Origin: an uncultured Pelagibacteraceae bacterium | GTDB taxonomy: Bacteria; Pseudomonadota; Alphaproteobacteria; Pelagibacterales; Pelagibacteraceae | DNA: 53,993 bases | NCBI GenBank assembly: GCA_902572345.1 | Contig: CACGEW010000007.1 | Location: forward strand, 1-53,993 | Reading direction: 5' to 3' | In this document: positions 1,872-27,719 of the stretch, piece by piece | How the letters are laid out: each line of letters opens with the position of its first letter | Position numbering within the stretch: the stretch's first letter is position 1 | Notes under the pieces: model-generated | The model's database searches: none | The model's input: the letters and a program-made list of their open reading frames with translations, nothing else | Told to the model about the DNA's origin: nothing | Made by a program: the position numbers and the translations under genes

Positions 1872-1899
1872 ATTTTAATAGTAGTTGAATTTTTTCTTT

Positions 1900-3306: not shown

Positions 3307-3308
3307 GG

Positions 3309-4631
3309 TTAAATGTTTAAGAATAACCTCTTAGGTTGTTCTAGTGACTCTTTTACTATTTTTAAAAATGATACCGCTTCTTTGCCATCAATTATTCTAT
3401 GATCATAAGATAGTGCTAAATACATTATTGGTCTAACCTGTACGTTGCCGTCCACTACAATTGGTCTTTGAATTATATTATGCATTCCTAACACTGCAGA
3501 CTGTGGTGGATTTAAAATTGGTGTTGAAAGCATCGATCCATAAATTCCACCATTCGTAATTGTAAATGTTCCACCTTGTAAATCTTCAATTGTAATTTTT
3601 CCTTCTCTAGCCTTTTGACCAAGATCACCTATATTTTTTTCAATATCAGCAAAAGACATTTCGTCTGTTTCTCTGAGAACTGGCACTACAAGTCCTCTAT
3701 CTGTTCCTACAGCAATACTTATATTGTAATAATTTTTATAAACTATTTCTTCACCTTGAATTTCTGCATTAACCGCAGGGTAATTTTTTAATCCAATAAC
3801 ACAAGCTTTTACAAAAAATGACATAAACCCTAATTTAACCCCATATCTGGTTTGAAATTCCTCTTTGTATTGACTTCTCATTTTCATCACTTCGCTCATA
3901 TCAACTTCATTGAAAGTTGTAAGCATTGCAGCGTTCTCTTGAGCTTCTTTTAATCTTTTGGCTATCGTTAATCTCAGCCTAGTCATTTTAACTCTTTCCT
4001 CTGGACCATGCTTAATTTTTCTCTCTGAAGGAGATGGTTTGGAGCCCATTAAGCTCATGATGTCTTCTTTTAAAATTAAACCATTTTTTCCAGTTCCATC
4101 TACAGCATCTAAATTTATTTTTGCTTCAATGGCCATTTTCCTAGCAGCTGGAGACACTTCTTTGTTTTCTTTTTGAACTATTTTTTCTTCATGAGCTTGG
4201 TCCAAAATCAATGGTTCTTCATCCTCTAATTCATCGTCTAATTTAAGAGCAGTTTCTTCAATTTTTTTTTGTTTAATTTTTTTTGGTTTTTTAATTTTTT
4301 CCTCTTTGAAAATTTTTGGTTGGATTTCTTTTTTTACCTTGTTAGGCGGGTTGTAAGTGTTAACTTCGTCTGTACTGCTACCTTTCGTGCTTGCTGAGAT
4401 ATCTACAGTACCTAGTAAAGAGCCTACGTTTACTGTTTCTCCTTCTTTTACAGAAATGCTTCCCAATACTCCATTTGTAGGTGAAGGAACTTCTACGTTC
4501 ACTTTATCTGTCTCTAATTCAACAAGAGGTTCATCAGCTGAAACTTTGTCTCCTTGTGATTTGAGCCACTTAGATACTGTAGCTTCTGTGACTGATTCAC
4601 CGAGCGTTGGAACTGTAATTTTTTCTGCCAT
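3309..4631 (-). CDS. sucB: 2-oxoglutarate dehydrogenase E2, dihydrolipoyllysine succinyltransferase
   Basis: The E2 core transfers the succinyl group from lipoamide to CoA. The 440 residues show one N-terminal lipoyl domain with the modified lysine in [10 protein letters not shown] (Lys43), a long Lys/Glu-rich linker at about 85-155, the E3-binding domain starting near SPAARKMA (about 160-195), and the C-terminal catalytic domain with the active-site SYDHRIIDG (His411 and Asp415). A single lipoyl domain and the HRIIDG context point to the succinyl rather than acetyl type. Its start directly follows the sucA stop and lpdA begins 2 bp after its own stop, so translation of E1-E2-E3 is probably coupled. 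Confidence 0.97.
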
Positions 4632-7526
4632 TTAATCTTTAAGTATCTTTTCCAATATTTCTTTTTGTTGTGCAAGATGTTTGTTAAGATTTCCAGTCGC
4701 AGTGGAAGAAGCTGCTTTTCTACCAACATATTTTACAGACTTATCACCAAAATTTACTATTTCTAAAGTTCGATCAATATAATTTCTTACTGTATTCCAA
4801 GCACCCATATTCTGTGGCTCTTCTTGACACCAAATAAATTCTGCTTTCGTATATCTTTTTAAAATATTTGCTAAAGTTTTTGCAGGAAAGGGGTAAAGTT
4901 GCTCTATTCTTATAAATGTTACTTCATTATTTTTGTATTTTTCTCTTGCCTCAATAAGATCATAATAAATTTTTCCTGAGCACATGATTACTTTTTTAAT
5001 TTTTGCATCTCTTTTTTTTAACTCAAGCAAATTTTTTATATTCGAATACGCGTCATCCTCTAACACTCTATGGAAGGTACTTTTTTTAGAGAACTCTGAA
5101 ATATTTGAAACACATTTTTTATGTCTTAATAGTGATTTTGGAGTCATAATAACCAGAGGTTTTCTAAACTCTCTATGCATTTGACGTCTTAAAACATGAA
5201 AATAATTTGAAGGTGTAGTGCAATTAACTACTTGAATGTTTTCTCCAGCACAAAGTTGTAAAAATCTTTCCAACCTTGCAGAAGAATGCTCGGGTCCTTG
5301 GCCTTCATAACCGTGTGGTAATAACAATACTAAACCACTAGCTCTACCCCATTTTGACTCTGATGATGAAATAAATTGATCGATTATTATTTGTGCTCCA
5401 TTAGCAAAATCTCCAAATTGTGCCTCCCATAAAACAAGTGTTTCAGGTTCAGACAATGAGTATCCAAATTCAAACCCTAAGACTGCTAACTCTGAAAGAA
5501 GACTGTCAATTATTTCAAAATTTTTTTGGTTACCTGAAATATTATTAAGTGGGATATATCTTTGATGATTATCCTGGTTTCTTAAAACAGCATGTCTTTG
5601 GCTAAATGTCCCTCTACCTGAGTCCTGTCCAGATAATCTTACCGAAAATCCTTCGGTGAGCAGTGTTCCAAATGCTAAACTTTCTGCAGTAGACCAATCA
5701 ATAGATTTTCCATCTAAAATAACTTTCATTCTTAAATCAAATATTTTTTTTAAGGTTTTGTGGACACTAAAGTCTTGAGGGATCTCAGAGATTTTTTTTC
5801 CTATGTTGATTAGTTTATTCTTATCAACACCGCTAACACCTCTTTTATCTTTGCCAAGATCTGGTTTAAATCTTGACCATACTCCATCATACCATTTTAA
5901 TTCTGATTTATAATTTTTTGATGACTCAAATTCTTTTTCTAAAAACTTCTTAAAATTTGTTTTCTCTTTTTGCAAATTAGTTTCAGAAGTCAGTCCTTCT
6001 TCACTTAATTTTTTTCCATAAATTGAAAGAGTTGTAGGATGAGATTTAATTTTTTTATACATAATTGGTTGAGTAAAAGAAGGCTCATCTCCCTCGTTGT
6101 GACCGAATCTTCTATAACAGACCATATCAATAACAACATCTCTATTAAATTTTTGTCTATACTCAGTCGCAATTTTAGCACAGTGAACTACTGCTTCAGG
6201 ATCATCTCCATTAACATGAAATATTGGTGCTTGAGCTGTCTTTGCAACATCTGATGGATAAGGCGAAGATCTTGCAAATCTCGGAGCAGTGGTGAAACCT
6301 ATTTGGTTATTAACTATTATATGGATCGTTCCACCAATGTTATGTCCTGGAAGACCAGACATAGCGAAGCATTCTGCAACAATGCCTTGACCCGCAAATG
6401 CTGCATCTCCATGCATAAGAACAGGAATAACTTTTTTTCTACCTTTATCCTTATGAAAAAATTGTTTCGCTCTAACTTGACCTAAAACCACTGGATTTAC
6501 TGCTTCTAGGTGGGATGGATTATCCGTAAGACTTATGTGCACTGAATTGCCATCAAACTCTCGATTTGACGAAGCACCTAAATGATATTTAACATCGCCC
6601 TCAAAATCTTTACTTGTACTTACAGACTTTCCAAAAAATTCACTAAAGATAGCTTTAAAAGGTTTGCCCATTACATTAGCTAATACATTTAATCTACCGC
6701 GATGAGGCATACCAATTTTGATCTCCTTAGCGCCTAAATTTCCTCCTCTTTTTATTATTTGTTCTAAAGCAGGTATTAGTGACTCGCCTCCATCTAAGCC
6801 AAATCTTTTAGTTCCAACAAATTTAACATGTAAATACTTTTCAAAACCCTCTGCTTGTACGATCTTATTTAAAATTGCTTTCTTTCCATTTTCGGTGAAA
6901 GTTATGTTTTTTTCAGGACCTTCTATTCTATCTCTGATCCAAGCTTTTTCATCTGGATCTCCCATATGCATAAACTCATAACCGATATTTGAACAGTAAG
7001 TTTTTTTTAAAATTTTTAATATTTCGTTTAAATCAGCGTATTGTAAACCAAGAACACCATCTAAAAAAATCTTTCTACTAAAATCACTCTTCTTAAATCC
7101 ATAGCTCTCAGGCTTTAATTCTGGATGCTCTTCTTTTTTTTGAATTTCTAAAGGATCTAAAGTGGCAATCAAATGTCCTCTTATTCGAAAAGCCCTTATC
7201 AACATAATTGCTCTAACAGAATCTTTAGATGCTTGCTTTACAGAAGATGAATTCAAATCTACTGAAGCTTCTTCATGAATATTTTGTTTTTCAGTAAAAG
7301 ATCTTAGTTTTTTAATTTTTTTTTCTGGTGACCAGCTAGGTCCGTTCAAATCTTGATAAATTAATTTTTCATCATCACTTAATCCATCAAAAAACTTTCG
7401 CCAACTTTCAGGTAAAGAATTAGGATCTGAAATATAATCTGCATAAAATTCTTTGATAAATTCAGAATTATTACCAGCTAAAAAAGAGGTTTTTTTGTAA
7501 ACAATATTATTTTTTGATGAAGACAT
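4632..7526 (-). CDS. sucA: 2-oxoglutarate dehydrogenase E1 component
   Basis: The thiamine-diphosphate E1 decarboxylates 2-oxoglutarate and succinylates the E2 lipoyl group. At 964 residues it has the size expected for the homodimeric E1o family. Motifs include the N-terminal E2-binding stretch with FIKEFYADYISDPNSLPESW, a conserved GMPHRGRLNVL, the ThDP site GDAAFAGQGIVAE, and the C-terminal transketolase-like half with HGYEGQGPEHSSARLERFLQ. It lies 31 bp after sucD and abuts sucB, in the standard alphaproteobacterial order sucCDAB-lpd. There is no sign of truncation. Confidence 0.98.
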   Translation of the reverse strand: MSSSKNNIVYKKTSFLAGNNSEFIKEFYADYISDPNSLPESWRKFFDGLSDDEKLIYQDLNGPSWSPEKKIKKLRSFTEKQNIHEEASVDLNSSSVKQASKDSVRAIMLIRAFRIRGHLIATLDPLEIQKKEEHPELKPESYGFKKSDFSRKIFLDGVLGLQYADLNEILKILKKTYCSNIGYEFMHMGDPDEKAWIRDRIEGPEKNITFTENGKKAILNKIVQAEGFEKYLHVKFVGTKRFGLDGGESLIPALEQIIKRGGNLGAKEIKIGMPHRGRLNVLANVMGKPFKAIFSEFFGKSVSTSKDFEGDVKYHLGASSNREFDGNSVHISLTDNPSHLEAVNPVVLGQVRAKQFFHKDKGRKKVIPVLMHGDAAFAGQGIVAECFAMSGLPGHNIGGTIHIIVNNQIGFTTAPRFARSSPYPSDVAKTAQAPIFHVNGDDPEAVVHCAKIATEYRQKFNRDVVIDMVCYRRFGHNEGDEPSFTQPIMYKKIKSHPTTLSIYGKKLSEEGLTSETNLQKEKTNFKKFLEKEFESSKNYKSELKWYDGVWSRFKPDLGKDKRGVSGVDKNKLINIGKKISEIPQDFSVHKTLKKIFDLRMKVILDGKSIDWSTAESLAFGTLLTEGFSVRLSGQDSGRGTFSQRHAVLRNQDNHQRYIPLNNISGNQKNFEIIDSLLSELAVLGFEFGYSLSEPETLVLWEAQFGDFANGAQIIIDQFISSSESKWGRASGLVLLLPHGYEGQGPEHSSARLERFLQLCAGENIQVVNCTTPSNYFHVLRRQMHREFRKPLVIMTPKSLLRHKKCVSNISEFSKKSTFHRVLEDDAYSNIKNLLELKKRDAKIKKVIMCSGKIYYDLIEAREKYKNNEVTFIRIEQLYPFPAKTLANILKRYTKAEFIWCQEEPQNMGAWNTVRNYIDRTLEIVNFGDKSVKYVGRKAASSTATGNLNKHLAQQKEILEKILKD

Positions 7527-7557
7527 TAAAATTTATTCTAACATAAATTTATATAAA

Positions 7558-8433
7558 TCAACCATTAAGTTTTTGATAAAGTGTTAGGCCTATATCTGCT
7601 GGTGATTTTGAAATAGTAATTCCTGCTGATTTCATTGTTTCTATTTTATCCTCAGCTCCACCTTTGCCTCCTGAAATTATAGCACCAGCGTGACCCATTC
7701 TTCTTCCCGGCGGCGCTGTTAATCCGGCAATAAATCCTACCATTGGTTTTTTAATCTTTTCTCTCTTTAAAAATTCAGCGGCTTCTTCCTCTGCAGAACC
7801 CCCTATTTCTCCAATCATAACAATTGACTTAGTCTCTTCATCTTTTAAAAAAAGTTCTAAACAATCAATGAAGTTTGTACCATTGATTGGGTCTCCTCCT
7901 ATTCCTATACAAGTAGATTGACCAATTCCATTTGCAGTAGTTTGAGCCACTGCTTCATATGTTAATGTTCCAGATCTTGAAACTATTCCTACTGAACCCT
8001 TTTTATGAATATTCCCTGGCATAATTCCAATTTTACATTCATCTGGGGTAATGATACCGGGACAATTTGGGCCAATCAATCTTGAGCTACTTTTATTTAA
8101 AACTTTTTTTACCTTAAGCATGTCTACAATTGGAATTCCTTCTGTAATACAAACAATTAATTCTATTTTAGCATCTATTGCTTCCTCAATAGCTGCCCCA
8201 GCAAATTTTGGAGGAACGTAAATCATTGTTGCGTCTGCAGATGTTTTATCTTTTGCTTCTATAACGGTGTTGAAAACTGGAAGACCCAAGTGCTTTTGAC
8301 CACCCTTTTTTGGGGTAACGCCTCCAACTAGCTTAGTGCCATATTTTAAAGCTTGTTCAGAATGAAATGTTCCATGAGTACCTGTAAAACCCTGACAAAT
8401 TACTTTTGTATTTTTATCAACTAAAACTGACAT
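7558..8433 (-). CDS. sucD: Succinyl-CoA synthetase alpha subunit
   Basis: With SucC this subunit converts succinyl-CoA to succinate with substrate-level phosphorylation. The 291 residues are normal for the family. The CoA-binding Rossmann segment is at the N-terminus ([15 protein letters not shown]), and the phosphorylated histidine lies in MGHAGAI at about His248, followed by the glycine-rich [11 protein letters not shown]. The start codon shares one base with the sucC stop (TAATG), which suggests translational coupling to give equal amounts of the two subunits. Confidence 0.98.
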
Positions 8434-9596
8434 TACTTTATTGCCTCAACAATTTTTTTAGCTGCATCATTGAGATCAGACGCAGACAAAATTTTTAAGT
8501 TGGATTTATTCAATATTTCTTGTCCTTCTTTGAAATTTGTTCCAGCCAATCTGACTACTAAAGGTATCGACAAATTAACTTCTTTAGCAGCGTCAACTAC
8601 TCCTTGAGCAAGAACATCGCATCTCATAATCCCTCCAAATATATTAATTAAAATTCCTTTAACATTTTGATCTGATAATATTAATTTAAAAGCTGATGAG
8701 ACTTTTTCTTTAGTGGCTCCACCTCCAACATCTAAAAAATTTGCAGGTTCTTTTCCATAAAGTTTAATTATATCCATAGTTGCCATAGCTAATCCAGCAC
8801 CATTAACCATACAGCCAATTGATCCATTTAATTTAATATAAGCAAGGTCATGTTTACTCGCTTCAATTTCAGCAGGCTCCTCTTCATTTAAATCTCTTAA
8901 ATTCTTAATTTCAGGTTGTCTAAAGATAGCATTGTCATCAAAATTTATTTTTGCGTCTAAACAAATAATTTCATTATTCTTATTGATAATTAAAGGATTA
9001 ATCTCAATTAAGCTTGCATCTTTTTCTACTAATATTTTATAAAGACTCTTTATTAATTTTGTGGCTGTTTTTTTTTGAGTATTATCAAAATCAAATATGG
9101 AAATTATACTATCAATTTCTTTCTGATCTGGACCTGATTTGCTAAATTCTATTTTATTTGTTTTTATCTTATCCGGTGACTCTGATGCTACTTTTTCAAT
9201 ATCCATTCCACCCTCAGTGCTACTGATAAAAGCCACCTTTGAAGTTTGTCTATCAACCAAACAAGATAAATAAAATTCTTTAGAAATTTCTGAAGCCTCT
9301 TCGATATAGAGTCTTTTCACTTGTTTGCCCTCAATCCCCGTTTGATGAGTAACCAAAATTTTTCCCATCATTTTTTTGGCTTCAGTTTCTAAGTCTATTA
9401 AGTTATTTAATAATTTTACCCCACCTGCTTTTCCTCTGCCACCAGCGTGAATTTGGGCTTTTAACACATAATTCCGAGTTTTTAATTTTGTTATCTCTTT
9501 ATTTATGTTTTTTAAGTCAAAAATAACAACGCCGGTTGGGACTGGAGCTCCAAATTCTCTCAGAATCTGTTTGGCTTGGTGCTCATGAATATTCAT
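8433..9596 (-). CDS. sucC: Succinyl-CoA synthetase beta subunit (ADP- or GDP-forming)
   Basis: The beta subunit carries the ATP-grasp nucleotide site and binds succinate. The 387 residues begin with the typical [16 protein letters not shown] and contain the ATP-grasp [15 protein letters not shown] near residues 45-60, the nucleotide-binding EINPLI, and the C-terminal glycine-rich [11 protein letters not shown]. It is the first gene of sucCDAB-lpdA. Only 56 bp separate it from the divergent membrane glycosyltransferase gene, so its promoter must lie there. In most alphaproteobacteria mdh stands directly upstream; here a glycosyltransferase insert intervenes. Confidence 0.98.
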
Positions 9597-9652
9597 AAAA
9601 ATTATTATATTTTACTTGTATATAAGATAAAGTTACTGAACGATTAGTTACA
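9597..9652. promoter_or_regulatory. Divergent promoter spacer between sucC and the glycosyltransferase insert
   Basis: This 56-bp spacer must carry promoters for both flanking genes unless transcription comes from farther inside. On the minus strand a perfect TATAAT lies at 9609-9604, so close to the sucC ATG that a transcript from it would be almost leaderless. A TTATAT-like alternative lies upstream within 9615-9625. On the plus strand TATAAG or GATAAA at about 9620-9630 could serve the glycosyltransferase. I see no clear -35 box, and in DNA this AT-rich the matches are weak evidence. Confidence 0.35.
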
Positions 9653-11305
9653 ATGAAATTAAATTACAATAAACATAAAAATTCAATTTTTTTAATTTTT
9701 TTTTATTTTTTAGTATTTTTCATTACTTTTTTGAATATAAATGATTATGGAATTCACATAGAAGAGAAGTTTCATAGATTAAACGGTTTATTTTGGGTGA
9801 ATTATATTTTTGATCTTTTGGGTTTAAATAATTTAGCTGAAATTTCTCAAACAAAAATCGATCAGATATACGACTATACTTTAAACAGACCTTCATATTA
9901 TAATAAATATGGTGTTGTTCTAGATCTTCCAGTAGCATTTTTAGAAATTTTTTTATCAATAGATGATGTCAATAAAATTTATACACTTAAACATCTTTTG
10001 AGTTTTTTAATTTTTTTAATTAGTTCAATTTTTTTTTACAAACTTTTACTTTCTAGATATAATTTTTTTTTAAGTTTTGTCGGAGTTGCAATATTTATAT
10101 TTTCTCCAAGAATATTTGGAGATAGTTTTTTATATAAAGATGTATTATTTTTGTCTTTTGTTACAATTACCATTTATTATTTTAATAAATCTATAAATAT
10201 TTTCAATTATAGAAACATAATTTTGTTATCATTATTTTCTTCTTTATCAGTAAACCTTAGATTCTTCGCAATTATAATTCCATTTTTATTTATTTTTACA
10301 TCATTTATAAAAAAAGATAATTTAAATAATATTACTGATTTTTGTAAAAAGATTTCTTTTTACATTTTATTTTTTATATTCTTCTTAATAATTTTTTGGC
10401 CTTATCTATGGTCTGATCCTTTAAATAATTTTTTAAATCTATTTAAAAATCTTAGTAGAGACTTAGTTGATGTTAAAATACTTTACAATAATGAGTTTAT
10501 TTCAAATAGACTTTTGCCAAACACCTATATTTTAAATTGGATTGCTATTACTACTCCAGTATTACAATTCATTTCTTTTTTTCTTGGCTTCATTTTTTGT
10601 TTTTTAAGGTTAATAAAAAGATTTATAAACATAAAAGAAAAATCCATTTATAATGACTTTTGGAGAGGTAAAAATGAAGAAACAGATTTTATAATATTTA
10701 TTATATTTATTTCATTCTATTTTTTATTTATATTTTTTGAAGCACCGTTATATAATGGCTGGAGATTAGTTTATTTCTTTAATATATTTATTACATACTT
10801 TGTAATTTATTTTATCTCCATAATATTTGGTAAAGTAAAAAATATATTTACAAAAAGAACTCTTATTTTTTTTTCATTGATTATCGTTATGATAAATATA
10901 AATGCTGTTATAAAATTTCATCCATTTCAAAGTATATATTTTAATAAATTTTTATCTGAAAAAACAGTTAATGGGTATGAAGGTGATTATTATGGAATGG
11001 CTTCCAAACATTTTTTTAAAAAAATTTTATCAAAAAACGATAGTGATAAAATTTACGTAGCAGTAGCGAGTCACACTCCTCTTCAGAGAGGTATAGAAGG
11101 ATTACCAGCAAAAGATAGAAAAAAATTCATAATTGTGGGTCAGGAATATCAAATGGCAGATTATATTTTCAAAAATAATATTTCAGAAGTCAATAGTAGG
11201 CTAAATAAAAAATATGAAATTCCTGAAAATTTTAGTAAAGTTTATACATTTAAAGTTAATAAAATCATCGTATATGAGATTTTTAAAAAAGAACTAACCA
11301 GATGA
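9653..11305 (+). CDS. Multi-spanning membrane glycosyltransferase, GT-C / GT39-like
   Basis: The 550-residue protein has about 10-12 hydrophobic segments and a C-terminal soluble tail of roughly 130 residues. The first lumenal-type loop after TM1 contains acidic residues (DYGIHIEEKFHR), and later loops have SPRIFGDSFLYKD and FWPYLWSDP. This layout is typical of GT-C enzymes that use a polyprenyl-phosphate sugar donor (the PMT, ArnT or GT39 class). Its acceptor is unknown; in this context it probably decorates a cell-surface glycan or lipid. The next gene overlaps it by 4 bp (ATGA). It reads opposite to the flanking TCA genes, consistent with an inserted cassette. The GT-C superfamily call is fair; the exact family is not certain. 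Confidence 0.7.
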   Translation: MKLNYNKHKNSIFLIFFYFLVFFITFLNINDYGIHIEEKFHRLNGLFWVNYIFDLLGLNNLAEISQTKIDQIYDYTLNRPSYYNKYGVVLDLPVAFLEIFLSIDDVNKIYTLKHLLSFLIFLISSIFFYKLLLSRYNFFLSFVGVAIFIFSPRIFGDSFLYKDVLFLSFVTITIYYFNKSINIFNYRNIILLSLFSSLSVNLRFFAIIIPFLFIFTSFIKKDNLNNITDFCKKISFYILFFIFFLIIFWPYLWSDPLNNFLNLFKNLSRDLVDVKILYNNEFISNRLLPNTYILNWIAITTPVLQFISFFLGFIFCFLRLIKRFINIKEKSIYNDFWRGKNEETDFIIFIIFISFYFLFIFFEAPLYNGWRLVYFFNIFITYFVIYFISIIFGKVKNIFTKRTLIFFSLIIVMININAVIKFHPFQSIYFNKFLSEKTVNGYEGDYYGMASKHFFKKILSKNDSDKIYVAVASHTPLQRGIEGLPAKDRKKFIIVGQEYQMADYIFKNNISEVNSRLNKKYEIPENFSKVYTFKVNKIIVYEIFKKELTR

Positions 11306-11565
11306 AAATATTTTTTTACAAAGCTCTTTTAATTTTTATTTTTTTTCTTCTAGCATTCCACTTTTCTTTTAATTATGCTGTAAGAATTGTTAAACAAGAA
11401 TTAAATAATAATATTTCTAAAGAAAAAGTTGAAAGCATTAAATTAAAAATAAAAAATGAGATGAAGACTGCAATAAATAAAGAAAATTTCATAAAACCAG
11501 ATGATGCGATTCTAATAAATAAATTTTTAGATAAGATTAAATCAGATTTAGAAAAAAGAAATTAA
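11302..11565 (+). CDS. Small single-pass membrane protein of unknown function
   Basis: I do not recognise this 87-residue protein. It has one N-terminal hydrophobic helix (about residues 4-26, FYKALLIFIFFLLAFHFS) and then a charged, lysine- and glutamate-rich, probably helical or coiled-coil region to the C-terminus. Its ATG overlaps the stop of the upstream glycosyltransferase (ATGA), and the next glycosyltransferase begins 1 bp after its stop, so it is translated as part of the insert and may act with those enzymes. A role as a scaffold or partner of the membrane glycosyltransferase is only a guess. Confidence 0.65.
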   Translation: MKIFFYKALLIFIFFLLAFHFSFNYAVRIVKQELNNNISKEKVESIKLKIKNEMKTAINKENFIKPDDAILINKFLDKIKSDLEKRN

Positions 11566-11566
11566 A

Positions 11567-12412
11567 TTGAAAAGTATTAACCATGTAATTATTATTCCAG
11601 TTTACAATGATTGGGATTCTTTGAATAAGTTACTTTCAAAGATTGATAATATCTTTAAAAATCAACGATTTATCAAAAATAAAATTTTAATTATAAACGA
11701 TAATTCTTCTAAAAAAGTGCAATTAAGAAAAAAAAACAAAATTAATATTATCTTTTTAAAAAAAAACTTAGGTAGCCAAAAAGCAATTTCAATTGGTTTA
11801 GAATATTTAAAAAAGGTAAAAGGGGATTTTTATATTACCGTGATGGATTGTGATGGGGAGGACAATCCTCTTAAATTAAAAACAATGCTTATAAAGGCCA
11901 AACGTTTTAAGAATTCTATAATAACTTCAAATAGACTGCAGAGAGAAGAGTCGTGGATTGTGATTTTTTTCTACAAAATTCATTTAAATTTGACTTTTAT
12001 GTTTACGTTAAAATGGATCTCTTTTGGTAATTTTTCTACATTTCATAAAAGAAATTTACAAAAATTACTATCAAATAATTGCTCTTGGTATGCTCATTCA
12101 AGTGCTGTAATTAAAAATTGTGAAATAATAAGAACTTATTCTAAGAGAGAAAAAAGATATTTTGGAAAATCTAAATTAAGTTTTTTTTCTCTAGTCGAAC
12201 ATTCGTTAAGAGTAAACTCTGTTTTTTATAAAAATATTTTTTTTATGTCTATTTTTTACTCATTAGTTTCCGTAATTTTATTGCCCGCACTTTTTGAAAG
12301 CATTATAATAGCTTCAATTGTTTTTTTTAATTTTTGTGTATGTTTCATTAAATATAAACATAGGATAACTAATTTATCTGATAATAAAAAATATATAAAA
12401 AAAATAAGTTAG
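11567..12412 (+). CDS. Family 2 glycosyltransferase with C-terminal membrane helices (DPM1/GtrB-like)
   Basis: The N-terminal GT-A fold starts with INHVIIIPVYNDWDSL and has ILIINDNSS as the nucleotide-sugar strand. The metal-binding DxD equivalent is in VMDCDGEDNP at about residues 92-101, followed by SNRLQREES, as in dolichyl- or undecaprenyl-phosphate mannose/glucose synthases. Two hydrophobic helices near 215-260 would anchor it in the inner membrane. It may make the polyprenyl-phosphate sugar used by the neighbouring GT-C enzymes; that pairing is common but is inference here. The start is a TTG at 11567, 1 bp after the upstream stop, chosen because the conserved first beta strand follows at once. 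The 3' end overlaps the convergent gene by 4 bp. Confidence 0.78.
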   Translation: MKSINHVIIIPVYNDWDSLNKLLSKIDNIFKNQRFIKNKILIINDNSSKKVQLRKKNKINIIFLKKNLGSQKAISIGLEYLKKVKGDFYITVMDCDGEDNPLKLKTMLIKAKRFKNSIITSNRLQREESWIVIFFYKIHLNLTFMFTLKWISFGNFSTFHKRNLQKLLSNNCSWYAHSSAVIKNCEIIRTYSKREKRYFGKSKLSFFSLVEHSLRVNSVFYKNIFFMSIFYSLVSVILLPALFESIIIASIVFFNFCVCFIKYKHRITNLSDNKKYIKKIS

Positions 12413-13968
12413 TTAAAGCATTTTATTTCATAAATGAAAAATATTTCTTCTTCGATTAGATCATAGCAATTTTTGTCAATGTATGCTGTTATAGCTTTTT
12501 TTGAAATTTTTTCGTGTTTAAAAAAAAATATCTTTTTTATATTTTTTTTCTTTATGATGCTTATAAGAAAATTTTTATAATAATCATAATATTTATTATT
12601 TGATTTTGGCATACTTGCTCCATCAGTGGTGAATGATTTATTAGGATAATTTAAATTTTTTGACGAGATGCTTTGGAGAAATTGATAATGGGTTATTAAC
12701 ATAATATTTTCACTTCTTAACTCCTCAATTTTAGCTCTTCCTTTATTTATAATTTTTATTTCATCTAAAGGATTGCCAGAGAACTCAGGATTGATCCACG
12801 ATAGATCTTTGAATTTATCACTTATAAGTTCTGCGCTTATAGAATTTTTTAAATTTACTGATTTAAGTTCGTGAAATTTTCTAGTTTCATTAAATCTCAT
12901 ATGATATTTAAAAGTAACAAAGATCAATATTACAATTAATCCGTATGAAAAAAATCTTTTATACTTGATATTTATTTGATTGAGTTCAATTTCTATAAAG
13001 CCAAATAATAATGGAACTAAAAAATATATATAAACCTGATTTTTAGTCATTATTTGATGAAAAATAAATATTGTAACAAGTAATGTTAAAAGTAAAAAAT
13101 TTAATATTTCTTTATTTGTGAGTTTTTTTTTTTTCAATTTTAAAACCAAAATTATTAACAGTGGTATCAAAATAAATTTGAACTTATTAAAGAAACTGTT
13201 GAGTGAAAAATTTAGATTTTCAATTCTATTAGAGCCGATTGATAGTGGATAATCGATATATTGGATAAAGAAATTTTTAAAATTATAGTCTAGTATTAAA
13301 ATTACTAGAAATAAAATAATTATATTAAAAATTATACTTTTAATTAAAGATTTTAAAAAATAATATTTTTTTTCCAAAATTGAATAGATTAAAAAAATAA
13401 CACCATAGGCAATAATTGCATAAGCAGCTGGAACTTGTTTAGAAAAAAAACTTAAAAAAAAAGCAAAAACAATAATAAACCAAATGTAGTCTTTATTAAT
13501 TTCAATATTTTTGAGAATTAAAAATATTCCAATTAATAAAAAAAAAGCTGCATGATGATCTACAAAAGGTGTTCCAGATATAGTATAAGCTAAAAGTGAA
13601 AAAGTAAGACTGTATAAAAATGCTTTAAATTTTGCAATTTTATAACTCACAAAAAAAAGATAAATAAAAATTGTTAGTAAACTGTTAAAAATAGATGAAT
13701 GAATTATATAAGCTGTCCAATTAACACCAAATATTTTAAAAAAACCTGACTGTAAAAAATCAATGACCAATCCAGAAACTACCCAATAATCTCTTATTGG
13801 TAATTGACCAATGATAATTCTATAAGCGCTATCATAATGAAAAAAAGTATCAATTGGAAAAGTGCCTATCTTTGAATAATAGAAGTTTACAAAAAAAGAC
13901 GATATTAATAAAATTAATAATATTAAAAAATCTATATATAAATTTTTGTTTTTTGGTAAAATATGCAT
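12409..13968 (-). CDS. Multi-spanning membrane glycosyltransferase-like protein (GT-C / PMT-like)
   Basis: The 519-residue protein has about ten hydrophobic segments and a C-terminal soluble part of roughly 150 residues. The loop after TM1 holds a DTFFHYDSAYRII segment followed by GQLPIRDYW, a pattern common in bacterial GT39/PMT-2-like proteins, where acidic residues of this loop are catalytic. A VDHHAA motif lies near 135-140. The substrate is unknown. It is convergent with the GT2 gene (4-bp overlap) and divergent from the methyltransferase, so it is transcribed on its own. Function as a glycosyltransferase is likely but unproven; it could also be an O-antigen ligase/polymerase-like membrane protein. 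Confidence 0.62.
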   Translation of the reverse strand: MHILPKNKNLYIDFLILLILLISSFFVNFYYSKIGTFPIDTFFHYDSAYRIIIGQLPIRDYWVVSGLVIDFLQSGFFKIFGVNWTAYIIHSSIFNSLLTIFIYLFFVSYKIAKFKAFLYSLTFSLLAYTISGTPFVDHHAAFFLLIGIFLILKNIEINKDYIWFIIVFAFFLSFFSKQVPAAYAIIAYGVIFLIYSILEKKYYFLKSLIKSIIFNIIILFLVILILDYNFKNFFIQYIDYPLSIGSNRIENLNFSLNSFFNKFKFILIPLLIILVLKLKKKKLTNKEILNFLLLTLLVTIFIFHQIMTKNQVYIYFLVPLLFGFIEIELNQINIKYKRFFSYGLIVILIFVTFKYHMRFNETRKFHELKSVNLKNSISAELISDKFKDLSWINPEFSGNPLDEIKIINKGRAKIEELRSENIMLITHYQFLQSISSKNLNYPNKSFTTDGASMPKSNNKYYDYYKNFLISIIKKKNIKKIFFFKHEKISKKAITAYIDKNCYDLIEEEIFFIYEIKCFN

Positions 13969-14011
13969 TCTAAATTTTTATATAATTTAATAATAAATAT
14001 TACAATTTAAA

Positions 14012-14695
14012 ATGGAAAATTATCCTGAAACAGCTACAGAAAGATTTGATAAAGCAAATTTTCATATAAAATATTGTTTGACTAAAGTAAAAAAATATAT
14101 TTTGGGTGATGTTTTAGAAATAGGTGCAGGTTGTGGAAGTTTTACTAGAAATTATATAACAGCTCCAGAGATTGAAAAAGTTATTCTAACAGAAAAAGAC
14201 TCGATTAATATAAAAAAATTAAAAGAGAATTTTGAAAATAATCAAAAAATTAGCGTTACAAATAAATCGATTCAAAATATTGATGGTTATTATGATACAA
14301 TTTTATATTTCCATGTATTAGAACACATTGAAGACGATATAAAAGAAATAGAGGAAGCTAAGCTAAAACTTAAACCTAATGGTCACTTAATAATCATAGT
14401 CCCCGCACATCAAAAAATGTATGGAAAATTAGATAAAGCCATAGGACATTTCCGAAGATACGACAAAAAATTCTTTAAAGATTTTGATCAGCTCAATTTA
14501 TTAAAATTACAATTTTTAGATACAATGGGATACATGTTGTATTTTTTTAATAGAATTTTTTTTAAAAAAGAAACTTTTCCTTCAAGTATAAAAATATTCA
14601 TTTGGGATAAAATATTTACTCCATTCACAATTATTATTGATTTTATTACGAACTACAATTTTGGAAAATGCATAATAGCTATTTATAAAAAATAG
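14012..14695 (+). CDS. Class I SAM-dependent methyltransferase
   Basis: The 227 residues show a Rossmann-like methyltransferase fold. Motif I is LEIGAGCGSF at about 37-46, the acidic residue after beta-2 is in LTEKDS, and motif IV is YFHVLEHIEDD near 93-103, followed by LKPNGHLIIIVPA. The segment AHQKMYGKLDKAIGHFRRYD is typical of methyltransferases that sit in polysaccharide and glycosyltransferase clusters. It is the last gene of the insert and ends 1 bp from the convergent mdh stop. The methyl acceptor cannot be read from sequence; a sugar or lipid intermediate is plausible from context. Confidence 0.82.
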   Translation: MENYPETATERFDKANFHIKYCLTKVKKYILGDVLEIGAGCGSFTRNYITAPEIEKVILTEKDSINIKKLKENFENNQKISVTNKSIQNIDGYYDTILYFHVLEHIEDDIKEIEEAKLKLKPNGHLIIIVPAHQKMYGKLDKAIGHFRRYDKKFFKDFDQLNLLKLQFLDTMGYMLYFFNRIFFKKETFPSSIKIFIWDKIFTPFTIIIDFITNYNFGKCIIAIYKK

Positions 14696-14696
14696 T

Positions 14697-15656
14697 TTAG
14701 ACTAATTCTGGATCAATTTTTTTTGCTGCATCAAACAATTCTTTCACAGCTTTAATTGAATTATCAAAATTTTTTCTCTCTTCTTTAGACAATTCTAATT
14801 CTACTATTTTTTCAACTCCTTTAGAGCCAATAATAACTGGTACACCAGCATATATATTTTGTGTTCCATATTCTCCATTTAAATGAACAGCGCATGGAAT
14901 TTTTTTCTTTAAATCACTTAAATAACATTCTGCCATTTCAACGCCTGATGCAGCGGGTGCGTAAAATGCTGATCCTTTTTCAAGATATTTGACAATTTCA
15001 GCTCCACCTTTTTTCGTCCTATCAACTATTTTATCTAATTTTTCTTGAGTTAATTTTCCTTCTCTTACTAAATCCATTATTTTTTTTCCTTCAATTTCAG
15101 TAGAACCCAACATGGCTACCATGCTATCGCCATGACCACCGAGTACAAATGACTTTATTTTTTGTACTGGAACTCTTAGTTCTTCTGACAAAAAATAAAT
15201 AAATCTGGACGAATCCAATATCCCAGCCATTCCAACAACTTTATTTTTTGGTAACCCAGAGTATTTCTGAAGAGCCATTACGATTACATCCAACGGATTT
15301 GTAATGCATATAACAAATGCATTGGGTGAGGTTTTTTTAATTCCCTCTGCTACCTGTTTAATTATTTTTAAATTAATACCAAGTAAATCGTCTCTGGTCA
15401 TACCTGGCTTTCTTGGAACCCCGGCTGTAATTATTATTACATCAGAGTTTTTTGTATCTTCATAATTATCTGTTCCTGTTAAATTCACATTGAAACCAGA
15501 AACAGGTGAGGATTGAGCTATATCCAAAGCTTTACCTTTTGCAATCCCTGCTGCAACATCAAACAATACCACGTCAGCTAATCCTTTTAATGCTATTAAA
15601 TGAGCTAAAGTTCCACCGATTTGTCCAGCTCCTATTAAAGTAATTTTTTTTTTCAT
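14697..15656 (-). CDS. mdh: Malate dehydrogenase
   Basis: The enzyme oxidises malate to oxaloacetate with NAD+. The 319 residues are of the LDH-like MDH type used by alphaproteobacteria. Visible are the Rossmann motif GAGQIGG at about 9-15, the substrate-binding arginines in [11 protein letters not shown] (Arg82 and Arg88) and LDSSR (Arg151), and the catalytic histidine in GGHGDSM (His175). Arg82 instead of Gln is the malate-specific signature. It is the last gene of the 14-gene minus-strand series and lies 13 bp after mmsA. The sucCDAB genes that usually follow directly lie about 5 kb away beyond the insert. Confidence 0.97.
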
Positions 15657-15669
15657 TATGTCCTTTTGT

Positions 15670-17163
15670 TTATTTCATGGTTGGCATCACAAACTCAGGG
15701 TCAGATCTTAGTCCTGATGGCCATCTTGAAGTTATCGTTTTTAATTTTGTATAAAATCTGACACCTTCCGGGCCGTGCATGTGTTGGTCACCGAATAAAG
15801 ATCTCTTCCAACCCCCAAAACTATGAAAAGCCATTGGCACAGGAATCGAAATATTTATCCCAACCATTCCAATTTTAGCTTTATTTGAAAATGTTCTTCC
15901 TGAGTCTCCGTCTCTTGTAAAAATGCTCACACCATTTCCAAATTCGTGATCATTAACTAACTGAAGTGCATCATTAAAATCTTTTACTCTTACAACAGAC
16001 AAAACAGGTCCGAAGATCTCTTCTTTATAAATCTTCATATCCTTTTTAACATGATCAAATAAGCATCCACCGATGTAATATCCTTTTTCATAACCTTGTA
16101 ACTTAAAATTTCTGCCATCTACAACTAATTTGGCTCCTTCTTTCTCGCCAATATCCACGTAACTTTTTACTTTTTCTAAATGTTCTTTAGTTACTAGTGG
16201 TCCCATTTCAGATTGCTTATCCATACCAGGGCCAACTTTTAATGCCTCAACTTTTTTTGCTAAAGAGCCTACTAACTTGTCTCCTATATTGCCAACTGCT
16301 ACTGCTACCGACTGAGCCATACATCTTTCTCCAGCTGATCCGTAAGCTGCTCCCATTAATCCATTAACAGCTTGATCCAAATCACAATCAGGCATTACAA
16401 CACAATGGTTCTTAGCGCCACCAAGAGCTTGAACTCTTTTTTCATTTTTTGCACAGCTCTCATAAATATATTTGGCAATTGGTGTTGAGCCAACAAAGCT
16501 CACAGCAACTACATCTTTATTATTAATTAAGGCATCAACTGCTTCTTTATCTCCGTTCATTACATTAAAGACACCATCTGGCAGTCCAGCATCTTTCAAT
16601 AACTCTGCTAATCGCATCGAACATGATGGGTCTTTTTCTGAAGGTTTTAAAACAAAAGTGTTTCCACACGCTATTGCCATTGGAAACATCCACATCGGAA
16701 CCATAGCAGGAAAATTAAAAGGAGTAATTCCAGCGCAAACTCCTAAAGGTTGTCGTACAGACCAGCTATCAACATTTGTACCAACATTTTCTGTAAACTC
16801 GCCCTTAAGCATTTGAGGAATGCCACAAGCGTACTCGACTACTTCCAAGCCCCTTGTCAACGAACCTTTGGCATCCTCATAAACTTTTCCATGTTCAGCT
16901 ACTATAATTTTTGTAAGCTCGTCAGAATTTTTTTCAATTAATTCCTTAAATTTAAACATTATTCTTGCTCTTTGAAGGGGAGGTGTATTTGCCCAGGGTT
17001 CGAAGGCTTTCTTGGCATTATCGACTGCTTGATTTACATCTTTTGTCGAAGCAAGTTTTACCTCTGAACTTTGTTCGCCTGTAGCTGGATTGAATACTTT
17101 ACCTGTTTTTTTCGAGTCCCCACTAAATGATTTACCCCCAACAAAGTGTTCAATAGTTTTCAT
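15670..17163 (-). CDS. mmsA: Methylmalonate-semialdehyde dehydrogenase (CoA-acylating)
   Basis: MmsA converts methylmalonate semialdehyde or malonate semialdehyde to propionyl-CoA or acetyl-CoA, linking valine, thymine and beta-alanine breakdown to central metabolism. From the ATG at 17163 the protein has 497 residues, normal for the family, with [12 protein letters not shown], the catalytic cysteine in AGERCMAQS (Cys281), and the C-terminal [12 protein letters not shown]. The frame is open upstream to 17253, but that extension is lysine-rich, overlaps sdhB and has no counterpart in the family, so I reject it. Placement between sdhB and mdh is unusual and suggests shared expression with the lower TCA cycle. 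Confidence 0.93.
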
Positions 17164-17186
17164 GCTGATATTGAATAAATAAGCTT

Positions 17187-17963
17187 TTAACTTGTTGCAA
17201 GCATTTTTTTTATAGATCCAATAGCTTTTGCTGGATTTAATCCTTTTGGACAAGAATTAGTACAATTCATTATTGTATGGCATCTGTATAATTTTAATTC
17301 GTCAGCAACTTTTCTTAATCTCTCTTTTTTATCACCATCTCTGCTATCATTGATCCAACGGTAAGCTTGTAATAAGACTGCAGGTCCTAGGTATTTATCA
17401 CCATTCCACCAATAGCTTGGACAAGAAGTTGAACAGCAAGCACATAATATACATTCATAATAACCATCTAATTTTTCTCTGTCTTTTTGAGATTGTTTGA
17501 TTTCCTCTTTTTCTTTTCCTGTTTGCTCTGTTTGCAGCCACGGTTTGATTGACTCATACTGTTTATATAGTGTAGTCAAATCTCCGATTAGATCTTTAAC
17601 TACTTTTAAATGAGGTAAAGGGTACACGTTTAAATCTCCATTAATATCTGTATGAGATTTAATGCATGCTAAGGTATTTACTCCATCTATATTCATCGCA
17701 CATGAGCCACAAACCCCATGAGCACATGATCTTCTGAATGTAAGTGAAGGATCTATTTCATTTTTAATTTTAAATAAAATATCTAAAACTTTTGGACCAC
17801 AATTATTCATATCAACTTCAAAAGTATCAACTCTAGGATTCTGTTTTGTAGATGGGTCCCATCTATAAACATTTACCCTTTTTAAATTTTTTGAATTTGT
17901 CTCGTCTTTGTAATACTTACCAACTTCTATTTTTGAACTTTGTGGTAAGTTGAATTGAACCAT
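17187..17963 (-). CDS. sdhB: Succinate dehydrogenase iron-sulfur subunit
   Basis: SdhB passes electrons from FAD in SdhA to ubiquinone through 2Fe-2S, 4Fe-4S and 3Fe-4S clusters. The 258 residues contain the 2Fe-2S ligands in [19 protein letters not shown], the 4Fe-4S motif [12 protein letters not shown], and the C-terminal cluster cysteines in [14 protein letters not shown]. It follows sdhA by 2 bp and precedes mmsA by 23 bp. Nothing is missing. Confidence 0.98.
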
Positions 17964-17965
17964 TC

Positions 17966-19741
17966 TTAATAAACTCTTTCCTTTGGTGGGAAGTATTGAA
18001 CGTCGTTCGTTAGTGTTCTTGAGTGAACATCTCTGTATTTAATTTCTACTTTTTTGTCACTTTGCCAAGCCAATGTGTGCTTCATAAAGTTTTTATCATC
18101 TCTCTTGCTATAATCCTCTCTTGCATGAGCACCTCTGCTCTCTTTTCTGCTATAAGCTGAGTCCATAGTCGTAAGAGCTTGTCTTATTAAATTATCAAAC
18201 TCCAGAGTTTCAACTAATTCTGTATTAAAAAGAAGAGATTTGTCTTTGACTGAAATATCTTGCATACCTTCATAAGGCTTTCGTATTTGATCTACACCTT
18301 CTTTTAATGTTTTTTCAGTTCTAAACACGGCACATTTTGATTGCATTGTTTTTTGCATATTTAATCTTAATTCAGCGGTCTTAGTAGCCCCTCCAGAGTT
18401 TCTAATTTTATCAAATCTATCTAAACATTTATCCGTCTCTGAACTCGAAACTTCTTCATGAGCCATACCTGGTTTTACAAGTTCTGCTGCTCTTTTAGCA
18501 GCCGCTCTTCCAAATACCACAAGGTCAATTAATGAATTTGAACCTAATCTGTTAGCCCCATGAACTGATACGCATGCTGCTTCCCCGATAGCCATCAGCC
18601 CGGGTACTGTTTTTTCTGAACCGTTTAAAGTTAAAACTTCTGCTTTATAATTAGTTGGAATACCGCCCATATTATAGTGAACCGTAGGTACAACTGGGAT
18701 TGGTTGTTTGTTCACATCAACATTTGCAAAAGTCTTTGCGGCTTCGGTTATGCCTGGAAGCCTTTCTTCTAAAACCTCTTTATCTAAATGATCTAAGTGC
18801 AAATTAATATGATCTTTATCTTTACCGACACCTCTGCCCTCATTAATTTCCATCTCCATTGATCTGCTTACTACATCTCTAGAAGCTAAATCTTTTGCGT
18901 TAGGTGCGTAACGCTCCATAAATCTTTCACCTTTACCGTTTACTAAAAATCCTCCTTCTCCTCTTGCACCCTCTGTTATTAAGCATCCTACTCCATAAAT
19001 TCCAGTTGGATGGAATTGCACAAACTCCATATCTTGTAAGGGCAATCCAGCTCTTAATACCATTGCATTACCGTCACCAGTACAAGTATGCGCTGAGGTA
19101 GCTGAATAATAAACTTTTCCATAACCACCTGTTGCTATTATTGTAATGTGTGATCTAAACCTATGAATAGTGCCATCAGTTAAATTCCAAGCTATAACTC
19201 CTTTGCACTCTCCATTTTTCATTATTAGGTCTAATGCAAAGTATTCGATAAAAAATTCTGTATTGTGTTTTAGTGCTTGACCATAAAGAGTGTGTAAAAT
19301 TGCATGGCCAGTTCTATCAGCAGCAGCACATGTTCTTTGTGCTGTTCCATTTCCATAATTTTTTGTCATTCCACCAAAAGGTCTTTGATAAATTTTTCCA
19401 TCATCTGTTCTGCTAAATGGAACACCATATCTCTCTAATTCAACAACTGCTCTTGGAGCTTCTTTACATAAATATTCTATAGCGTCCTGATCGCCTAACC
19501 AGTCAGAACCTTTGACGGTATCGTACATGTGCCATCTCCAGTCATCCTCTCCCATATTTCCAAGAGCTGCCGAGATGCCTCCTTGAGCTGCAGATGTATG
19601 ACTCCTTGTTGGAAATACTTTTGAAATACAAGCTGTTTTTAATCCAGCTTCTGATAGGCCAACGGCGGCTCTAAGACCAGACCCTCCTGCTCCTAAAACT
19701 ACAACGTCATATTCATGATCAATAATTTTATATGCGCTCAT
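17966..19741 (-). CDS. sdhA: Succinate dehydrogenase flavoprotein subunit
   Basis: SdhA oxidises succinate to fumarate with covalently bound FAD. The 591 residues show the dinucleotide motif [12 protein letters not shown], the covalent FAD histidine in [11 protein letters not shown], the substrate-site HPTGIYG, and the catalytic-arginine region TEGARGEGG. The C-terminal helical domain ends with the typical PPKERVY. Its first base overlaps the sdhD stop by 1 bp, so the complex II subunits are probably coupled in translation. Confidence 0.98.
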
Positions 19742-20067
19742 TATGATAAATTATATATACCTGTAATAGTTATTAAAGGCATAATTATAGCAAATATATT
19801 CAAAACTTTATTTGCGACATTTTTGATTTTTTGATCTTTTATATAATCCTCGAATATCTCACTTATGGTTAAAGCTGAAAAAAAGAAAGCTATTACTATA
19901 AATATTGAAAATAAAATTCTTGTTGGTTGTTGAGCAAAGAAAAAAAGCACTGTTTGATAATCATTCTCATAAATAGAAATAAAATTTAAAATAAACCAAA
20001 TCATTAAGGGAATAAGTAAAAAAGAACTTATTTTTGTAAATAACCATTTTTTTGTAGAAACATGCAT
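19741..20067 (-). CDS. sdhD: Succinate dehydrogenase membrane anchor subunit SdhD, lacking the heme histidine
   Basis: This 108-residue protein has three hydrophobic helices and lies between sdhC and sdhA, so it is SdhD by position and size. The EDY motif at 73-75 corresponds to the quinone-site Asp-Tyr (TDY) of E. coli SdhD. The heme b axial histidine normally lies ten residues before that motif; here the position is Phe63 ([10 protein letters not shown]). The only histidine in the whole protein is residue 2. SdhC keeps its own histidines. Either heme b is bound by one ligand only, another residue substitutes, or the heme is absent. Confidence 0.85.
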
Positions 20068-25810: not shown

Positions 25811-26338
25811 TTATTTTTTATCTTTTGGCTCTTCCTTTTTAGGCTCTTCCTTTTTGGCTTCTGCTTTAGGTTCTTCCTTTTTAGGCTCTTCCTTTTTAGC
25901 TTCTGCTTTAGGTTCTTCCTTTTTAGGCTCTTCCTTTTTAGCTTCTGCTTTTGGCTCTTCTTTTTTAGCTTCTGCTTTAGGTTCCTCTTTTTTACCTTCT
26001 GTTTTAGGTGCTTCTTTAGTTTCTTCAGCACTTTTTTTTCTGTCCTTTTTAGGAATAGCTTTTTGAGGATTGTTTCCCGGCTTCGGCATTGGCATTATTT
26101 GGAGCTCACCTAAAAGCCTAGAAACTCTAAGAGTTGGTTGAGCACCTTTACTCATCCAATATTTTACTCTCTCAGCTTCTATCTTTATTCTTTCTTTTTT
26201 ATCTTTTGGAAGCAATGGATTGTAAGAACCAATTTTTTCAATAAATTTACCGTCTCGTGGATATCTTCCATCAGCGATAACTATTTTGTATATCGGTCTT
26301 TTCCTTACTCCTCCCATTGATAATCTTATTCTTAACAT
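25811..26338 (-). CDS. rpsP: Ribosomal protein bS16 with a repetitive KKEEP/KAEA C-terminal tail
   Basis: bS16 is a small-subunit assembly protein. The conserved part (about residues 1-85) has LRIRLSMGGVRKRPIYKIV, RDGKFIEKIGSYNP and ERVKYWMSKGAQPT. The protein is 175 residues long, roughly twice the common length. From about residue 100 the tail is Lys/Glu/Pro/Ala only, built of tandem units KKEEPKAEA and KKEEPKKEEPKAEA. Tails on bS16 are known in several alphaproteobacteria. The exact unit structure here reflects a DNA tandem repeat that may vary in copy number between strains. An AAAGG Shine-Dalgarno lies before the start. Confidence 0.96.
   Translation of the reverse strand: MLRIRLSMGGVRKRPIYKIVIADGRYPRDGKFIEKIGSYNPLLPKDKKERIKIEAERVKYWMSKGAQPTLRVSRLLGELQIMPMPKPGNNPQKAIPKKDRKKSAEETKEAPKTEGKKEEPKAEAKKEEPKAEAKKEEPKKEEPKAEAKKEEPKKEEPKAEAKKEEPKKEEPKDKK
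25823..25993. repeat. In-frame tandem repeat encoding the bS16 tail
   Basis: The DNA encoding residues 116-172 of bS16 is a degenerate tandem repeat. In the coding sense it is two 27-bp units (KKEEPKAEA), then two 42-bp units (KKEEPKKEEPKAEA), then a final partial unit ending KDKK. Adjacent copies differ mostly at third codon positions. All unit lengths are multiples of three, so expansion or contraction would keep the frame. The opposite strand is also open because of the repeat, but that frame is a shadow. Confidence 0.85.
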
Positions 26339-27701: not shown

Positions 27702-27719
27702 TTTTATAACGTCCAACAC

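Follow-up and report, generated by a model that had tools for sequence, protein, structure and literature searches.

A probable replacement island with a constant glycosyltransferase gene inside the mdh-sucC operon of one part of SAR11

The window analysed here is the whole stretch of 53,993 nucleotides of contig CACGEW010000007.1 (assembly GCA_902572345.1), from an uncultured Pelagibacteraceae bacterium whose genome amounts to 0.99 Mb and is 92% complete; its closest mdh matches are titled Pelagibacteraceae or Candidatus Pelagibacter, i.e., SAR11. In this window, mdh and sucC are separated by 5,100 bp, which open reading frame (ORF) calls fill with five tightly packed genes. Both flanking genes lie on the minus strand: mdh (14697..15656; Ldh_1_N and Ldh_1_C) forms the right flank, and sucC (8433..9596; Pfam ATP-grasp_2 and Ligase_CoA) the left one, where it heads sucCDAB-lpd. 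Read leftwards, the order is presumably sdh genes, an aldehyde dehydrogenase gene, mdh, the insert, sucCDAB and lpd, all names besides mdh and sucC having been assigned by eye.

The insert genes are designated by the protein clusters (C1, C2 and so on) to which they belong in a survey of relatives, described below, in which 88 sites are occupied by an insert. Next to sucC lies C2 (9653..11305, plus strand), encoding a 550-residue protein with the predicted fold of a GT-C glycosyltransferase and found at 30 of the 88 sites. It is followed on the same strand by its companion C5 (11302..11565), which encodes an 87-residue protein and occurs at 20 sites, C2 being present at all 20, and by C4 (11567..12412, with a TTG start), encoding a 281-residue GT2 glycosyltransferase of the polyprenyl-phosphate sugar synthase type (Pfam Glycos_transf_2, 1.2e-13; 24 sites). 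The anchor of the insert, C1 (12409..13968, minus strand), encodes a second enzyme with a predicted GT-C fold, of 519 residues, and is found at 87 of the 88 sites, reading in the direction of mdh and sucC every time. Finally, C6 (14012..14695, plus strand) encodes a 227-residue methyltransferase dependent on S-adenosylmethionine (Methyltransf_23, 1.6e-12; 17 sites). Four of the five genes thus oppose the operon, C1 being the exception: C6 converges on mdh, with one base between them, C4 converges on C1, and C2 diverges from sucC across a spacer of 56 bp (9597..9652), the putative place of a sucC promoter given the spacing pattern at the 88 sites. A first-pass annotation of this DNA had described a five-gene insert in mixed, mostly opposing orientation, and on this point ORFs and Pfam bear it out.

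The insert also differs from its surroundings in composition. Its GC content is 0.213, versus 0.321 for mdh and sucC together, and in 1-kb windows it stays at 0.19-0.23 over positions 10001-14000, compared with 0.31-0.36 over 1501-9500 and 0.33-0.38 over 15001-20000. When the five insert genes are compared with 12 flanking genes, Phe (11.8 vs 3.5%), Ile (14.5 vs 7.7%), Asn (7.9 vs 5.1%) and Tyr (5.8 vs 2.4%) are all raised, and GC at first and third codon positions is lower (GC1 0.265 vs 0.462; GC3 0.158 vs 0.208). The bias to Phe, Ile, Lys and Asn proposed earlier therefore holds for three of these residues, but Lys barely differs (10.6 vs 10.2%). As a control, three further small membrane proteins encoded in the window (537 residues in all) have 12.1% Phe and 13.4% Ile, so that the excess of these two residues is usual for membrane proteins; as the same controls have 5.4% Lys, 5.0% Asn and a GC3 of 0.207, Lys, Asn and GC3 still distinguish the insert.

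No RNA element was found at the insert with Rfam at the gathering threshold, which over the whole window returned only the ffh small RNA (RF01793) at 27718-27770, directly upstream of an ffh-like gene, and no rRNA. A tRNA-linked island was ruled out, as no tRNA lies within the window. Repeats at the insert borders were limited to A/T-rich low-complexity matches, none of which joins both borders (for inverted pairs, among the 25 longest of 45), and no integrase or transposase was found by Pfam among the five genes.

Assignment of the two large proteins relies on structure prediction. The C1 model (predicted local distance difference test score, pLDDT, 89.9) matches the folds of Pmt4 (Z 16.7), ArnT (Z 16.4) and oligosaccharyltransferases (Z about 14-15.6; PglB, Z 14.9), and its sequence matches Pfam PMT_2 at 1.5e-4, below the cut-off. 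The C2 model (pLDDT 83.3) matches ALG12 (Z 24.4), Pmt1-Pmt2 (Z 24.3) and ArnT (Z 22.5), without any Pfam or NCBIfam match. Neither protein falls into a named family of these two databases above cut-off, and sequence-profile searches with both retrieved no solved structure at E<=1. Alignments took in 31 of the 87 C1 and 17 of the 30 C2 proteins (ATG starts; L171 left out as a near-duplicate). Over the 31 C1 proteins, 30 of which are 31-51% identical to that of the window, 24 columns are invariant; Asp60 and Asp70 are invariant and Asp40 nearly so. As judged from the predicted models, C1 and C2 belong to the GT-C superfamily, with a multi-helix membrane domain, a putative extracytoplasmic domain and, in C1, conserved acidic residues, and the early description of two GT-C-like enzymes was correct. 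The sequence divergence of C5 follows that of C2 (Mantel r 0.81, 19 loci).

The comparison across SAR11 genomes proposed in the first-pass annotation was carried out by searching mdh, sucC, C1 and C2 in 147 genomes of the family, sampled as one genome per species. Loci of relatives comprised 60 regions taken by coordinate and 80 found through mdh in named genomes; together with the window this gave 141 loci (L039-L178 and the window), 120 of which had both mdh and sucC, representing 106 distinct junctions. ORFs were called with a longest-ORF script with a cut at 70 residues, which may miss short genes, and proteins were grouped by single-linkage BLASTP (E<1e-8 over half of the longer protein). 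Inserts were found at 88 of the 106 junctions, with sizes from 919 to 8,477 bp (median 3,265), and in all 88 their GC content is below that of mdh and sucC. The junction is short in most genera and usually spans kilobases in g1 (the window's own genus), g2 and g3, as well as in the single g11 genome (G011), which has C1 between sucC and mdh and lies outside the 106 junctions; the family-genome search detected neither mdh nor sucC in g10 and g14. Closed junctions, with a gap of -1 to 89 bp, were seen in ten loci from eight genera (g4-g9, g12 and g13), and in 20 further g4 loci an ORF of sucC length begins at most 40 bp from the mdh stop. The glycan-type genes do interrupt a junction that other SAR11 genera keep closed. 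On the mdh+sucC tree, many forks of which are weakly supported, occupied loci form one part, with some closed sites interspersed. At the latter, 0-23 bp separate the mdh stop from the sucC start, which places the insert exactly between the two genes.

What the insert contains varies between relatives, and it is compact and more ordered than first apparent, with a constant anchor gene. Clustering sorts the 259 insert proteins into 21 clusters, 17 of them with at least two members, and the 88 occupied sites display 39 gene arrangements, among which C1 alone and C3 with C1 account for 14 sites each. The exact five-gene set of the window recurs at only four sites (the window, L118, L120 and L044), and the gene trees disagree with that of the core. 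The outcome named in the first-pass annotation as refuting its reading, the same five genes in most relatives with phylogenies like the core genome, was thus not observed. Instead of a single cassette that is present or absent, as first suggested, one GT-C gene is thus nearly always there while its partners change. These partners occupy two slots around C1, whose contents vary but whose orientation is kept. C3, C6, C8, C9-C11 and C13-C15 lie mostly on the mdh side, and C2, C4, C5, C7, C12, C16 and C17 mostly on the sucC side; C2, C3, C4, C5 and C6 read against the operon, with a single exception among 24 C4 genes, and C7, C8, C9-C10, C11, C12 and C14 read with it. Spacing tracks orientation: most adjacent genes in tandem or convergent order overlap or almost touch, and divergent ones are separated by about 20-110 bp.

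These arrangements bear on the proposal that the insert forces sucC to use its own promoter. This is not general, since the gene adjoining sucC is co-directional with it at 45 of the 88 sites. At 39 of those 45, this gene is C1, spaced by -4 to +39 bp in 35 cases, so that read-through into sucC is possible. In the window, however, the 56-bp divergent gap makes a dedicated sucC promoter likely, on spacing alone. A consensus promoter scan was uninformative, with 57 sites compared to 50.4 +/- 6.6 in shuffled sequences and none listed within 9597-9652.

Two side observations concern individual loci. The mdh of L056 (G027) is 81% identical to that of the window but its sucC only 66%, unlike most loci of similar mdh identity; this sucC may have been replaced along with the rare C6-C13-C15-C1-C16 cargo, which is also found in L142. 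In addition, C1 copies broken by stops or frameshifts occur in L061 (G107), G112:C53 and L181, and are candidates for decaying anchors.

The partner families fit a role in sugar modification. Relatives of C4 in the PDB include GtrB sll0501 (1.3e-9), ArnC (2.6e-7) and DPM1 (3.3e-5), all of which make polyprenyl-phosphate sugars. By family matches, C3, C6, C7 (FkbM) and C8 are methyltransferases, C10 and C15 aminotransferases and C11 a GSDH-type protein; C17 has weak formyltransferase matches, and C12 we take, by eye only, to resemble an acetyltransferase. C13 (FAD_binding_4) occurs at three of the 88 junctions, one of which also has C18 (SDR domain). Homologues of both are found at a second site in L179-L181. 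In L179, the C13 homologue matches DprE1 structures (6.8e-32), and the pair matches the DprE1 and DprE2 models below NCBIfam cut-offs, although the SDR protein fits a general SDR model better than that of DprE2. As GT-C enzymes take lipid-linked sugars outside the cytoplasm, according to passages of PMC11127046, the parts of the insert fit a periplasmic glycan-modification pathway. To judge from family and fold, its function would be a periplasmic glycan modification that depends on polyprenyl-phosphate sugars.

Taken together, we consider it probable that, for one part of SAR11, the mdh-sucC junction is a replacement island that lies within an operon and serves to modify glycans of the cell envelope, C1 being constant and its partners swapped. 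States differ in 13 of 27 pairs with a host identity (mdh+sucC) of 0.88-0.95 and in 189 of 213 pairs at 0.85-0.88. These are differences between species, and they do not show the strain-variable cassette proposed at first. Among 200 pairs at a host identity of 0.85-0.90, C1 identity is bimodal, with 161 pairs at 0.25-0.40 and 27 at 0.55-0.80, and seven pairs at a host identity above 0.95 keep a C1 identity of 0.86-0.96. Two modes at a single host distance indicate that alleles appear to be replaced and are not merely drifting. Moreover, the alleles of C1 are tied more closely to its partners than to the host. In a set of 79 thinned loci, C1 identity shows no correlation with that of the host (Mantel r -0.01). 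It correlates positively with that of all six partners compared, strongly for C3 (r 0.77), C6 (0.76), C4 (0.66) and C7 (0.60; p 0.001-0.005) and less so for C5 (0.35) and C2 (0.26). In the C1 tree, most C1 genes fall together according to their partner (C3, C7, C8, C9-C10 or C6). Every cluster tested in C2-C9 needs fewer presence changes on this tree than on the host tree (C3, 6 vs 18; C4, 10 vs 18; C6, 7 vs 14; C7, 4 vs 9; C9, 2 vs 5; C2, 14 vs 17; C5, 12 vs 15), C11 being equal with 2 on each, and whole architectures need 42 changes on the C1 tree versus 53 on the host tree, compared with about 67 on both in shuffles.

The flanks were tested in 37 of the 87 C1 loci by correlating their identity with that of C1, given the identity of sdhA and sucD. 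On the mdh side, the correlation falls from 0.39 for the 3' half of mdh and 0.24 for its 5' half to 0.16 for ald and -0.06 for sdhB; on the sucC side, it falls from 0.28 for the 5' half of sucC to 0.10 for the 3' half and -0.06 for sucA. Such a decay with distance is the pattern expected if flanks are transferred together with the island, which supports exchange without proving it. By bootstrap, the contrast between the 5' and 3' halves of sucC ranges from 0.024 to 0.308.

Several results weigh against exchange or against the proposed function. The bootstrap contrast between the 3' and 5' halves of mdh (-0.013 to 0.311) includes zero, and no clear divergence peak was seen at the island borders over the control of 22 g4 loci without insert. 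Near-identical cargo in distant hosts was not seen, so that no recent transfer was caught. When only the 25 C3-bearing loci are taken, C1 identity tracks that of the host (r 0.49, p 0.002), and part of the C1 history is therefore vertical; C4 and C6, for their part, are uncorrelated where they co-occur (r -0.05, 8 loci). The host tree itself is built from mdh and sucC, which may have recombined. As to function, no GtrA-type flippase (PF04138) was found in the window genome, at its 92% completeness, by a search that was positive in 7 of 14 control genomes. The C3-bearing loci and the lack of detected recent transfer are what one would expect under vertical inheritance with very fast protein evolution, lineage-specific loss from a large ancestral set and little exchange, as are the shared state of all eight species pairs above 0.95 host identity and the conserved orientation of nearly every cluster. 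Such a history would however have to account for the bimodal C1 identity at one host distance, for a C1 that over the 79 loci is correlated with partners and not with the host, and for the roughly twofold excess of changes that C3, C4, C6 and C7 need on the host tree; we therefore regard it as unlikely.

Delivery of the cassettes by a mobile element or a phage appears quite improbable. It draws on an IMG/VR contig (L217, 12.9 kb, whose T4-like phage genes include MazG and a DNA methyltransferase) that ends in a truncated C1 (positions 1-592), 68% identical over 191 residues to that of the SAR11 locus L087; since the fragment lies at a contig end, an assembly chimera is possible. A tblastn search of 50,697 phage records matched neither C1 nor this fragment, and C2 was not detected when viral contigs were scanned by pattern. 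In addition, the five insert genes include no integrase or transposase by Pfam, the window has no tRNA, and none of the repeats listed pairs the two borders. Still more improbable is a neutral trap, i.e., a permissive AT-rich site in which foreign genes settle and then degenerate without a selected function. The low GC of all 88 inserts and the stop-containing C1 copies of G107 and G112 would suit it, but the same families recur, C1 is nearly universal, orientation is fixed and spacing is tight in a small genome, and the 24 invariant C1 columns persist among proteins of which all but one are 31-51% identical to that of the window.

Returning to the replacement island, the insert may date back to an ancestor of the genera now occupied, a few lineages having lost it since. 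It would then be exchanged by homologous recombination within the conserved genes on either side, so that C1 and its partners move together, and single modules would also be gained and lost. In the proposed pathway, C4, of the GtrB/ArnC/DPM type, or the DprE1/E2-like enzymes of some genomes, would make or remodel a polyprenyl-phosphate sugar, to be decorated by methyltransferases, aminotransferases and, less surely, acetyl- or formyltransferases. In the periplasm, C1 and C2, the latter with C5, would transfer the sugar to a glycan or protein of the envelope. A change of partners would thereby alter the surface, and phages are a plausible source of selection for this. As for the window, sucC would most likely start from a promoter in the 56-bp gap.

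Homologues of C1 or C2, with similar kinds of partners, are also found in small AT-rich stretches at other core genes, at sites chosen from search matches. The neighbours of these stretches were named by eye from protein starts, and we take them to be rpoD (beside it in L183 and L187), nuoA (beside it in L182 and L185), lepA (near it in L184 and in L186 of g4), gap (beside it in L188, L189 and L192) and recG (near it in L191 and L194). At a further site, which we take by eye to be linked to dcd (L179-L181), DprE1/E2-like genes are present, with yidC presumably on the opposite side in L179 and L181. The gap-linked stretch has C2-C5 with aminotransferase-like and GT2-like genes, its contents differing among the three loci. 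Three g2 genomes with a closed junction (L179-L181) carry C1 at the dcd-linked site, the L181 copy being split by a stop or frameshift. Relocation of C1 when absent from the junction was also considered and not found in six genomes of 0.7-1.1 Mb, five with closed junctions (L128, L143, L124, L158 and L177) and one with C8 only (L157), the positive control coming from a separate search. The window genome has one C1 and one C2, and outside the family C1 is rare, with one match beyond its own genome in 240 genomes of the class. We tentatively propose, as a possibility about which we hold some doubt, that SAR11 of this group possess a dispersed 'serotype' system in which an anchor, either the C1 family or the C2-C5 pair, is accompanied by swappable sugar-modifying partners in AT-rich micro-islands within or next to housekeeping operons (mdh-sucC, rpoD, nuo, dcd, gap, lepA and recG), where transcription would be guaranteed and the conserved flanks would serve as recombination handles.

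SAR11 has been described, in passages of Wilhelm et al. (2007, PMC2217521), as combining a conserved core with four hypervariable regions (HVRs) in which variation is concentrated. In the present reading, a core energy operon of a genome of about 1 Mb tolerates inserts that read in the opposite direction, and would double as a site for cell-surface change in several genera of SAR11, the ocean's most abundant bacteria. If the dispersed system is real, surface diversity would arise from many micro-islands and not from HVR2 alone. With its one retained glycosyltransferase, its changing partners and the related inserts at other core genes, the site within the operon would also provide a simple, countable surface-type marker, readable from single-cell genomes or long reads and testable against pelagiphage host range.

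A further feature lies beyond the insert. In many relatives, the contig breaks off some 10 kb upstream of mdh, close to a rpsP-like gene. In the window, this gene (25811-26338), which we take by eye to be rpsP, is ribosomal protein S16-like with a long KAEAKKEEPK-type repeat tail, and this tail probably breaks the assemblies.

Among known systems, ArnT, protein O-mannosyltransferases and oligosaccharyltransferases resemble the two GT-C proteins in fold over most of the chain (Z about 14-17 for C1 and 19-24 for C2), but sequence identity is only 6-13%, with the sub-cut-off PMT_2 match for C1 and no family for C2. The Gtr seroconversion systems and the pentofuranose systems with GT136, described in part in PMC11127046, are three-component periplasmic glycosylation systems that alter surface antigens. 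The island likewise combines a GtrB-like GT2, i.e., C4, by sequence relationship only, with GT-C proteins, i.e., C1 and C2, by fold, and DprE1/E2-like enzymes at some sites. It differs by its core-operon location, by GT-C proteins outside named families and by the absence of a detected GtrA family member in the window genome. HVR2 of SAR11, as presented in passages of Wilhelm et al. (2007, PMC2217521) and PMC7318151, is a hypervariable region of about 48 kb with surface-glycan genes between the 23S and 5S rRNA genes. Host, predicted surface-glycan content, variability and a proposed homologous recombination in the flanks are shared with it; unlike HVR2, the present insert is flanked by mdh and sucC, without rRNA among the Rfam matches of the window. 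The word 'succinyl' is absent from the main text of PMC2217521, and the mdh-sucC junction is named in no title or abstract opening among the literature matches listed (e.g., the best 15 of 1,439). The closest parallel is with replacement flexible genomic islands, complete gene clusters of typically 20-40 kb exchanged between close strains, typically above 96% average nucleotide identity, as outlined in parts of Lopez-Perez et al. (2014, PMC4033161). As in these, the same site holds different genes of similar role in relatives (88 of 106 junctions occupied, 39 architectures). The predicted GT-C, GT2 and sugar-modifying families may, to judge from family and fold, act in the glycosylation of exposed structures, and exchange may occur through conserved flanks. 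Unlike replacement flexible genomic islands, the mdh-sucC island measures 1-8 kb, lies inside a metabolic operon and retains one anchor gene, around which partners are changed piecemeal.

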